Positions 10,894-13,987 of a stretch of DNA of 64,000 nucleotides are shown piece after piece (position 1 is the stretch's first letter; the number at the start of each line of letters is the position of its first letter). Under the pieces are notes generated by a model, which was given only the letters and a program-made list of their open reading frames with translations, was not told the DNA's origin and ran no database searches. The stretch comes from Mesorhizobium sp. B2-8-5 (GTDB lineage Bacteria > Pseudomonadota > Alphaproteobacteria > Rhizobiales > Rhizobiaceae). The stretch covers positions 5,613,501-5,677,500 of the forward strand of contig NZ_CP083951.1 in NCBI RefSeq assembly GCF_006440675.2. Reading direction: 5' to 3'. A program made the position numbers and the translations under genes.

Positions 10894-10968
10894 TGGGGCG
10901 TCGCCAAGTGGTAAGGCATCGGTTTTTGGTACCGACATTCCCAGGTTCGAATCCTGGCGCCCCAGCCA
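10894..10968 (+). tRNA. tRNA-Gln (anticodon UUG), CCA encoded
   Basis: A full cloverleaf can be drawn. The acceptor stem TGGGGCG pairs with CGCCCCA, the anticodon stem TCGGT pairs with ACCGA around loop TTTTGGT (anticodon TTG, reading CAA), and the T arm CCAGG-TTCGAAT-CCTGG is intact. The discriminator is G10965 and the CCA end is encoded at 10966-10968. No integrase or duplicated 3' end was seen nearby. Confidence 0.95.
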
Positions 10969-11124: not shown

Positions 11125-12048
11125 TCAGCCGGTGGAGGCCGGTTTCGGAAGCCATCGCTTTTCGATCAGGCAAACCATCGTATAGGCAGGGTCAAAAACG
11201 TTTCCGACGTGATACCGGACAACCTGTCCCATCAGATGCGATGCGGCAGCGGCGGACAAGCCGTGGTCACTGGTCAACCAGTTGAACATATCCGTGGTCG
11301 CGTGCTGGAGAGCCTGATCAAGCGGACGAGCATTACCAACAGAGAAAATGTGGGTCTCGTTCTCGCCACGAGGCCATGTCAACCGTCTGTTTTTTTCCAC
11401 GGTCAAGCGAAGCTCAACTTCAAAGCAGGTTTCGATCCCGGTTCCAACGATCTCCCCATCGCCCTGCGCCGCATGGCAATCGCCCGCGAAGAAGAGCGCA
11501 CCCTCTGCCGCAACGGGGAACCAAACGGTCGCGCCGGGCCGAAACCCGCGGTAATCCATGTTCCCGCCATTTTCTGCACTGGTCGCGGTGGAGAAAGCCT
11601 GGCCCATCGATGGCGCCACGCCGAAGCAGCCGATCATCGGCTCGACCGGCAAAATGAAGTGCTCGAGGCCTGGCGGCGGCTCCTGCAACACCACAGTTCG
11701 CGCTTCCAGGTCGATCTGCCAAGTGACTTTGTCCCTGGCAGGCAGCCCACGAGCAGCCTCCGGATCGACAACGTTTGCAGCCAGTGACGAGATCGTCCAG
11801 CCGGAAGAGCGGATCGGGTCCATGCGCAGGATCTCCACACGCAGCGCATCACCAGGTGCGGCTCCTGTCACGAAGACCGGGCCGTTCATAGGGTTCGGCC
11901 CTCGTGACCGCTGCACACCGTTCTTGTCGAAGCCCTGAGCGTCGAGCGTTTCCGTCGTCACGACATCGCCGGATGCAATTGTGAGCGCCGGCGCGATCGT
12001 ACCAAGGACATTGTGCCAAGTGGTGTTGGTAAGTTTGTGCGTCGCCAT
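11125..12048 (-). CDS. Acetamidase/formamidase family protein
   Basis: This 307-residue protein matches the FmdA/AmdA family, which hydrolyses small amides to ammonia and the acid. Recognisable blocks are GDVVTTETLDAQG near the N-terminus, NPMNGPVFVTGAAPGD, PMIGCFGVAPS in the centre and FAGDCHAAQGDGEIVGTGIE, the last containing conserved acidic and histidine residues. ATG 12048 gives the typical MATHKL start; 26 further in-frame codons upstream look non-coding. It stands alone, divergent from the HAD/P-loop fusion gene. The true substrate is unknown. Confidence 0.88.
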   Translation of the reverse strand: MATHKLTNTTWHNVLGTIAPALTIASGDVVTTETLDAQGFDKNGVQRSRGPNPMNGPVFVTGAAPGDALRVEILRMDPIRSSGWTISSLAANVVDPEAARGLPARDKVTWQIDLEARTVVLQEPPPGLEHFILPVEPMIGCFGVAPSMGQAFSTATSAENGGNMDYRGFRPGATVWFPVAAEGALFFAGDCHAAQGDGEIVGTGIETCFEVELRLTVEKNRRLTWPRGENETHIFSVGNARPLDQALQHATTDMFNWLTSDHGLSAAAASHLMGQVVRYHVGNVFDPAYTMVCLIEKRWLPKPASTG

Positions 12049-12274
12049 TAGATCGCAGTAACGAAGGCGTCGAGGTACGGCAAGTGGGCGGATTGAGCTC
12101 TTCCTGGCCGATCGTTTCGTTCGCATGGGCGAGTCGCTGCGATGCGCGACGGCCTAATGCCGGCCCGAGAAATCCAGTGCTCGACCTAAACCTTTTCCGC
12201 CTCCAGGCGTTGTTGTCCGCCGAGCCGGATACTGCCGGCGGGCGCGAAAAACAGCCGGCGGAGAGGTTAAACCG

Positions 12275-13987
12275 ATGTATTTCATGGCATTGGCCACCGA
12301 CTATGACGGCACGCTGGCGCATGATGGCCTGGTCACGGCCAGCACGATCTCGGCGCTGGAAAAGCTGAAGAAATCAGGGCGCAAGCTCATCCTGGTCACC
12401 GGCCGCGAACTGCCCGACCTCAAGGAGGTTTTTCCCGAACTTTTCCTGTTCGACAAGGTCGTCGCCGAAAACGGCGCGCTGATCTACACGCCGGCCAGCG
12501 AGGAAGAGCGCACGATCTCGCCCTCGCCTTCCGTCGATCTCATCGACGGGCTCAAGAAGCGCGGCGTGAAGCCGCTGTCGGTTGGGCGCTCGATCGTCGC
12601 CACCTGGGAGCCGCACCAGGTGACGGTGCTCGACGTCATCAAGAAGCTCGGGCTGGAGCTGGAGATCATCTTCAACAAGGGCGCGGTGATGATCCTGCCC
12701 TCGGGCATCAACAAGGCAACCGGACTGGCGGCTGCGCTCGAGGACCTGAAGCTGTCGCCGCATAATGTCGTGGCCGTCGGCGACGCCGAGAACGACCACG
12801 CTTTCCTCAGGGCCTCGGGCTGCAGCGTCGCTGTGGCCAACGCGCTGCCCGCGGTCAAGGAAACCGCCGACCTCGTCACCAAGGCGCCGCGCGGCAAAGG
12901 CGTCGAGGAACTGATCCGCAGGCTGACCAAGCGCGATTATCCGCTGGCCAAAAAGCGCTCGCGCGGCGTGCTGCTCGGGACCTCACGCGGCAAAGACATC
13001 TACTTGTCGCCGATGGAAACAGTGCTGATCGCCGGCAGCTCGGGCATCGGCAAATCGACCTTGGCCACGGCGCTCACCGAGCGGCTGGTCGAAAAAGGTC
13101 TGCAATTCTGCATTTTCGACCCCGAGGGCGACTATGACGGACTGAAAGGCGCGGTGCCGCTCGGCAACGGCTCGACCGCGCCGAACAAGGAACAATTGCT
13201 GGAATTGATCGAGAAACCGCAGAACAATGTCGTGGTCAATGGCCTGGCGCTGAAGGTCGATGAGCGTCCCGATTTCTTCGCCGAATTGCTGCCCGGCCTC
13301 GGCAATGTCCGCTATCGCACGGCAAGGCCGCACTGGCTGATCATCGACGAGGCGCATCATTTGATGCCCAAGCGACGCGGAGATACGCGGGCGGTGCTTT
13401 CGATCGAGCTGCCTGGTACCGTGCTGATCACCGTCCACCCCGAAGCAATCTCCACCGATGCGTTGCGGCTAGTGACGGCAGTGATCGCACTCGGGCCCAA
13501 CGCAAAGGACGTGATCAGGACCTTCTGCAAGGAAACCGGGCTCAAGGCGCCGAAGGACATTCCTCTGCCCAAGGGCGACCGCGTGCTGTTCTGGCGGCCG
13601 CATGACGGCAAGAAGCCGTTCACGGTCAAGGCGATCGAGCCCGACCAGTCGCTGAAGCGGCACAGCCGCAAATATGCCGAAGGCGAGCTCGACGAGGCGG
13701 GCAGCTTCTATTTCACAGGGCCGAAGAAGGCGATGAATCTGCGAGCTCACAATCTCATCATCTTCGCCCAGATGGCGGAAGGTATCGACGACAAGACATG
13801 GGAATACCATTTGCGCGCCGGCGATTATTCCAAATGGTTCCGCCAGCAGATCAGGGACAAGGAACTCGCCAACGAAACAGCAGACGCGGAGAAGAACAAG
13901 GCGTTGTCGGCCGACGAGAGCCGCAAGCTGGTGATCGACGCCGTGCGCCGCCGCTATACGGCGCCGGCGACGGCGCCGGAGAACTAG
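12275..13987 (+). CDS. HAD-IIB phosphatase fused to a HerA/DUF87-like P-loop ATPase domain
   Basis: This 570-residue protein has two recognisable modules. Residues 1 to about 215 are a Cof-type (IIB) HAD phosphatase: DYDGT nucleophile motif at D9/D11, VTGR, and VGDAENDHAF near residue 168. Residues from about 235 to 440 are a P-loop NTPase with Walker A AGSSGIGKST near 253 and Walker B WLIIDEAHH near 352, preceded by FDPEGDYD, resembling the HerA/VirB4/DUF87 class. The last 110 residues contain TWEYHLRAGDYSKWFRQQI, which I cannot assign. The ATG has a GAGAGG Shine-Dalgarno. It is monocistronic and convergent with smc. Biochemical role unknown; both active sites look intact. Confidence 0.85.
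   Translation: MYFMALATDYDGTLAHDGLVTASTISALEKLKKSGRKLILVTGRELPDLKEVFPELFLFDKVVAENGALIYTPASEEERTISPSPSVDLIDGLKKRGVKPLSVGRSIVATWEPHQVTVLDVIKKLGLELEIIFNKGAVMILPSGINKATGLAAALEDLKLSPHNVVAVGDAENDHAFLRASGCSVAVANALPAVKETADLVTKAPRGKGVEELIRRLTKRDYPLAKKRSRGVLLGTSRGKDIYLSPMETVLIAGSSGIGKSTLATALTERLVEKGLQFCIFDPEGDYDGLKGAVPLGNGSTAPNKEQLLELIEKPQNNVVVNGLALKVDERPDFFAELLPGLGNVRYRTARPHWLIIDEAHHLMPKRRGDTRAVLSIELPGTVLITVHPEAISTDALRLVTAVIALGPNAKDVIRTFCKETGLKAPKDIPLPKGDRVLFWRPHDGKKPFTVKAIEPDQSLKRHSRKYAEGELDEAGSFYFTGPKKAMNLRAHNLIIFAQMAEGIDDKTWEYHLRAGDYSKWFRQQIRDKELANETADAEKNKALSADESRKLVIDAVRRRYTAPATAPEN

Follow-up and report, generated by a model that had tools for sequence, protein, structure and literature searches.

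HerA-type ATPases are a class known for moving DNA, and HerA itself acts as a hexamer. Other described proteins close to the subject of this study are the HAD-IIB phosphatases of the PH1421/TA0175 type (1wr8, 1kyt), OtsB (the canonical trehalose-6-phosphate phosphatase) and OrfY of Thermoproteus tenax. Our subject is a gene at positions 12275..13987 of a stretch of 64,000 nucleotides from Mesorhizobium sp. B2-8-5 (NZ_CP083951.1, 5,613,501 to 5,677,500; the whole stretch is hereafter called the window), in which one open reading frame (ORF) was confirmed to hold a phosphatase, an ATPase and a third domain. We put at about even chances the proposal that this three-domain family is a HAD-IIB phosphatase which removes phosphate from the product of OtsA in the stress response, with the HerA-type core gating it. 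That product would most likely be trehalose-6-phosphate, perhaps with related disaccharide phosphates. The gene is laid out as follows.

12275..13987, + strand: the whole ORF, 570 amino acids, intact; HAD-IIB phosphatase, HerA-type ATPase core and C-terminal OrfY-like helical domain
12275..12943, + strand: HAD-IIB phosphatase domain, complete, residues 1-223
12299..12313, + strand: HAD motif I, DYDGT, residues 9-13; D9 and D11 in 65/65 rows
12713..12715, + strand: HAD motif III lysine, K147; 65/65 rows
12779..12796, + strand: HAD motif IV, GDAEND, residues 169-174; G169, D170, A171, E172, N173 and D174 invariant in alignment A7
12956..13660, + strand: HerA-type ATPase core (residues 228-462 by structural alignment), lacking an N-terminal HAS barrel
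13034..13057, + strand: Walker A, GSSGIGKS, residues 254-261; K260 in 65/65 and S261 in 64/65 rows
13118..13135, + strand: DPEGDY, residues 282-287, at the position of the HerA-type DPxGEY motif; D282 and E284 in 65/65 and Y287 in 64/65 rows
13340..13360, + strand: Walker B, IIDEAHH, residues 356-362; D358, E359, H361 and H362 in 65/65 rows
13637..13957, + strand: C-terminal helical domain, residues 455-561, distantly DUF5752/OrfY-like, its border with the ATPase core not sharp
13796..13837, + strand: TWEYHLRAGDYSKW core of that domain, residues 508-521; W509, H512, D517 and W521 in 65/65 rows

A sequence-only reading of this DNA had proposed that HAD-IIB and HerA are stably fused here, both active sites being preserved; this holds, and the three-part order is conserved over several phyla. 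In the alignment of 65 selected rows to which the row counts above refer, D9, D11, K147, D170, N173, D174, K260, D282, E284, D358 and E359 do not vary, and neither do H361, H362, W509, H512, D517 and W521. The catalytic D, D, K and D/D of HAD-IIB motifs I, III and IV are thus present in every row, and T42 of motif II in 63 of them (S in one, A in one); by established knowledge of the HAD superfamily we presume D9 to be the nucleophile and D11 the acid/base. Proteins with the three parts in this order occur in Pseudomonadota, Cyanobacteria, Actinomycetota and Nitrospirota, among others, and these full-length relatives over several phyla rule out a chance fusion. In the best 80 of 381 genome-contig loci the match runs from query residue 1 to at least residue 561. 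With eight distant members as queries and 7998 candidates scored, at least 120 matches were obtained, each at 99-100% coverage, and the 120 best include Scytonema, Microcoleus, Manganitrophus (Nitrospirota), Methylomirabilota and Blastocatellia. Of 37 matching plasmid records, 11 span at least 80% of the query: Sinorhizobium (4), Aminobacter (2), Synechococcus PCC 7502 (49%), Nonomuraea (49%), Paraburkholderia, Caballeronia and Agrobacterium.

Among the genome samples, the phylum sample held nine full-length copies in 299 genomes (eight from the same genus), the class sample full-length copies in 4/385 genomes, our own included, and the family sample matches in 16/199, 15 of them full length and one interrupted by a contig end. 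In the genus sample 97 of 146 genomes match (E <= 1e-20), so that the family is common within the genus and scattered above it. A prevalence of HAD-only or ATPase-only relatives, which would speak against a stable fusion, is not what the genus holds: 89 of the 97 carry a full-length copy, three the HAD part only (G197, G710, G742), two short fragments and three two pieces in different frames (G668, G744, G750). In G744 and G668 (L176, L177) a frame change in the linker splits HAD from ATPase, at sites about 20 residues apart, by natural fission or through sequencing error.

Compared with its described relatives, the phosphatase part is a member of HAD-IIB (TIGR01484, 96.5 bits against a cut-off of 41.8), and database entries for the family bear the names HAD-IIB family hydrolase, HAD family hydrolase or phosphoglycolate phosphatase. 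It differs from the PH1421/TA0175 type by the fused ATPase and third domain, and from OtsB likewise: the otsB of this genus lacks an ATPase part, and the OtsB model PF02358 (Trehalose_PPase) reaches only E 0.083 and 12.4 bits, under its cut-off of 27. The HAD part could instead be a broad house-cleaning or phosphoglycolate-type sugar phosphatase whose trehalose link is hitch-hiking. PH1421 is its best fold match, and the archaeal phosphoglycolate phosphatase model TIGR01487 is the best-scoring NCBIfam model at 109.2 bits, but this stays below the model's cut-off of 122.75, as the protein does for the curated phosphoglycolate phosphatase models generally, and the otsB exchange set out below is specific and more than one event; we consider this explanation quite unlikely. 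A functional parallel is Saci_0016 of Sulfolobus acidocaldarius, likewise a HAD enzyme by description. In the available part of PMC7688234 it has trehalose-6-phosphate phosphatase activity and, by its authors' search, is no homologue of characterised trehalose-6-phosphate phosphatases; it differs as a 27 kDa monomer with a broader substrate range.

The ATPase part belongs to PF01935 (DUF87, HerA/FtsK; 36 bits against a cut-off of 23.2), and its predicted single-chain model matches the RecA-type core fold of HerA. Core fold, Walker A and Walker B are common to the window protein and HerA (4d2i, 9x1m). Unlike HerA, the window protein has no HAS barrel, a shorter core and a place behind a phosphatase: in the model, the stretch from the HAD part to Walker A holds two strands only (232-237 and 240-244), and the structural matches begin at HerA residues 117, 118 and 152. 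Nor is there, unlike for HerA, a nuclease partner among the named genes of the annotated neighbourhoods. Part of the ATPase (window 12995-13156, about residues 241-294) has a match at 6e-12 to mad8, a component of the MADS defence system, which suggests a possible kinship between mad8 and this HerA branch. Product names in nine plasmid stretches (5-6 kb flanks; one has a 46-residue piece only, and another an IscB gene 4.8 kb off) revealed no defence cluster of the MADS/mad8 kind. A HerA-type defence or DNA-handling machine with the HAD part as effector (e.g. a nucleotidase), like Sir2-HerA or NurA-HerA pairs, is very unlikely in our judgement, given that the named plasmid neighbours are mainly metabolic, transport and stress genes, that the family is common in one genus (97/146) and that HAD alone is retained beside an otsA operon.

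For the third domain the likeness is distant: the sequence match to OrfY (4cso), a separate chain of 216 residues whereas here the domain is fused, is weak (E 0.015), and the DUF5752 model PF19027 scores 16.9 bits over residues 441-570, under its cut-off of 23. That model is matched weakly by 11 of 12 family members (best 7.2e-5). In our own genome a DUF5752 search is also weak and says little alone because 6 of 14 control genomes match too, one of them over the cut-off. An open-access PMC search turned up no literature on DUF5752. A C-terminal profile matched 954 short proteins; of ten looked at among the 120 best, most start within the ATPase part and seem to be tails of the three-domain protein itself, while P0203 and P0230 start roughly where the third domain does and may be stand-alone forms of it.

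The evidence that ties the family to trehalose, a pathway which the sequence-only reading had not named and which this analysis adds, lies in the fate of otsB. In the genus sample, otsA was found in 136 genomes and otsB in 122, leaving 14 with otsA and without otsB. Ten lack both genes (G663, G683, G694, G713, G714, G716, G717, G766, G776, G786). Four of the 24 otsB-less genomes were set by elimination (G785, G786, G787, G790); in G785, G787 and G790 the otsA region was read and contains no otsB, and G786 has no otsA. Two kinds of extra copy matter here: the HAD part alone, and the full-length copies of a second clade, about 57% identical to the window copy and located elsewhere in their genomes. 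Among the 136 otsA-bearing genomes, 13 of the 14 carriers of such a copy lack otsB, against 1 of the 122 others. One of these thirteen copies, that of G787, is split over two contigs, with pieces 97% and 91% identical to the second clade. The sole carrier that keeps otsB is G737, and the one non-carrier without it is G671, an assembly of 390 contigs with a weak otsA match (2.3e-35). Fisher's test gives 4e-16, or 2e-14 without G787, with kinship ignored and the grouping made after seeing the data. In G756 and G715, whose additional copies or pieces belong to the window's own type, otsB is present.

Loss of otsB for other reasons, such as other trehalose routes, with the extra HAD copies present by shared descent only, would explain the same pattern, since the carriers are close kin: the OtsA tree places the four HAD-only genomes in one clade and those with second-clade copies in another. 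On that tree of 33 selected rows, however, otsB changes at least four times, with or without Aminobacter, and G737 is nested among otsB-less kin; moreover, otsA is kept in all 13 genomes, HAD sits in the otsA cluster in four, and otsB is missing in only 1 of the 122 non-carriers, which makes this account improbable in our view.

The gene order GT4-GDE-otsA-otsB stands in all 12 selected genus genomes without the HAD-HerA family, and our own genome has this operon as well, outside the window (G000:C1, about 3056384-3062351; L196). The four HAD-only genomes (G194, G197, G710, G742) have HAD-GT4-GDE-otsA and no otsB. Both Aminobacter plasmids, the only part of these genomes seen, carry a full-length copy divergent to GT4-GDE-otsA with no otsB beside it; otsA follows GT4 and GDE without otsB in 9/9 otsB-less second-clade genomes. 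Beyond the genus, G873, G949 and G832 have a GDE-otsA cluster, a family member and no otsB. Mesorhizobium ephedrae (L070) has GDE-otsA-otsB with a full-length copy 1.4 kb on. As side observations, GDE is matched in pieces or in part at L199 (G790), L200 (G785), L203 (G739) and L206 (G737), as if decaying in several second-clade genomes, and at L173 the OtsA of the GT4-GDE-otsA-otsB operon type has an N-terminal hydrophobic stretch, as if membrane-anchored.

The same neighbourhoods allow a different substrate, namely the product of the adjoining GT4 glycosyltransferase rather than that of OtsA, in the manner of sucrose phosphatase after sucrose-phosphate synthase, which are enzymes of these classes. 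GT4 adjoins the family copy in the HAD-only genomes and in Aminobacter, the Caballeronia copy is directly preceded by two GT4 genes with 51% and 50% identity to that GT4, and sucrose phosphatase and mannosyl-3-phosphoglycerate phosphatase are among the folds matching the HAD part. Against this, it is otsB that goes missing when an extra copy is present, and GT4 is kept in 12/12 family-less genomes looked at, so GT4 does not need the HAD-HerA protein; we hold this explanation to be unlikely, if with some real chance.

The HAD part is kept on its own in the four genomes named (G194 also has a full-length copy) and on one Nostoc plasmid. In the unrooted HAD tree of 61 rows, the HAD parts of the four genomes group as sister to those of the full-length copies from Aminobacter (99/89). 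The Nostoc HAD belongs to a cyanobacterial group of five rows (99/96), the other four of which are full length; its position within the group is weakly supported (93/44). ATPase and tail were therefore most likely lost at least twice with the phosphatase retained.

A link to stress is suggested by the pattern GGAAC-N16-18-NGTT, the EcfG/RpoE2 general-stress consensus. The scan covered 300 bp upstream of each copy, and 350 bp for the window's, against a background of 0.032 per 300 bp. The motif precedes all nine Sinorhizobium copies scanned, alike and at -63 to -115 (a tenth locus begins too close), 2/2 copies of M. camelthorni/alhagi, 9 of 10 second-clade copies (the tenth has 232 bp only), 4/4 HAD-only copies and 2/2 Aminobacter copies. 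Before the GT4 of the trehalose operon it occurs in 1/9. The available part of PMC3616915 gives no consensus letters for RpoE2, and no gene of the HAD-HerA family was found in it. Ensifer aridi LMR001, which carries the family (L075) with the motif at -72, has a viable otsB mutant with altered growth and symbiosis, and otsBA is called RpoE2-mediated in the available part of PMC8877191.

Several observations weigh against an OtsA-linked phosphatase. The authors of the Ensifer aridi study infer trehalose-6-phosphate build-up in the otsB mutant despite the family copy (PMC8877191, available part); a second phosphatase is compatible with this mutant, though full redundancy is not favoured. The link with otsB emerged from inspection of the data and not from a hypothesis fixed in advance, in carriers that are close kin, and in otsA-bearing genomes of the wider family sample otsB is missing in 3/16 carriers against 4/84 non-carriers, which is not significant (p 0.08); three of these four non-carriers (G924, G926, G929) hold only a higher-scoring otsA-like gene, perhaps of another specificity. 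Within 6 kb of the Synechococcus, Paraburkholderia and Agrobacterium copies the annotation names no otsA, and the Caballeronia copy follows GT4 genes, not otsA. Many HAD-IIB enzymes accept several substrates. Most genomes with a copy of the window's clade also have otsB, and this clade is not beside otsA; the window copy is without the motif, which other loci show in 2/68 cases and further full-length copies in 0/13 (starts assumed for six). Finally, because the tree shows HAD retained without ATPase in two lineages, the 'nucleotide-gated' element of the sequence-only reading is something we infer.

Two features of the surroundings stand apart from this argument. A tRNA-Gln (TTG) lies at window 10894-10968, between two upstream glycosyltransferase-like genes and the gene at 11125-12126. 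SMC next door was considered as a general link and ruled out, as it occurs in 25/80 loci, some of which are cut short.

Taken as a mechanism, the proposal has three steps. The HAD part would hydrolyse the OtsA product, to which we give somewhat better than an even chance for the HAD-only and second-clade copies and somewhat less than even for the window's own copy, whose substrate is less sure because its clade coexists with otsB and lacks the promoter motif. Our best guess for the window copy is a second or conditional phosphatase on the same or a near substrate, beside an intact otsA-otsB operon elsewhere. The HerA-type core may form an ATP-binding ring, as HerA does, gating or stationing the phosphatase or coupling its action to cellular energy, and the helical, OrfY-like tail may bind or tether partners; both steps are tentative. 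Archaeal precedents exist in the activity of Saci_0016 (PMC7688234) and in a fused synthase-phosphatase that forms a complex with a GT4-family protein (PMC3634074, available parts of both); the main text of PMC3634074 makes no mention of OrfY, whose membership of a trehalose operon is therefore not claimed. The earlier interpretation is thus partly supported, with regulation of the phosphatase by the ATPase still conjectural.

In many genomes, from several phyla, this protein is annotated simply as 'HAD-IIB family hydrolase'. The sequence-only reading took the architecture to be undescribed, and we too found no characterised protein with it in the open-access literature or in PDB sequence searches, where each best stretch lay within one domain; listings and abstract starts of open-access PMC literature likewise gave no description of the architecture or of otsB displacement by it. 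Its parts are of known kinds, and the combination and proposed role are, to our knowledge, new. It is a speculative but conceivable outcome that a HerA-type ATPase was turned into a control part, an ATP-driven ring that, under general stress, gates or stations a trehalose-6-phosphate phosphatase, and that gene transfer has carried the resulting protein, which can take the place of OtsB, into many phyla. The idea is testable in plant symbionts, since an otsB mutant exists in Ensifer aridi LMR001 (PMC8877191, available part). If true, the family would provide the phosphatase step that trehalose synthesis lacks in strains with otsA and without otsB, and would be the first case known to us of a HerA-type ATPase serving a sugar phosphatase.
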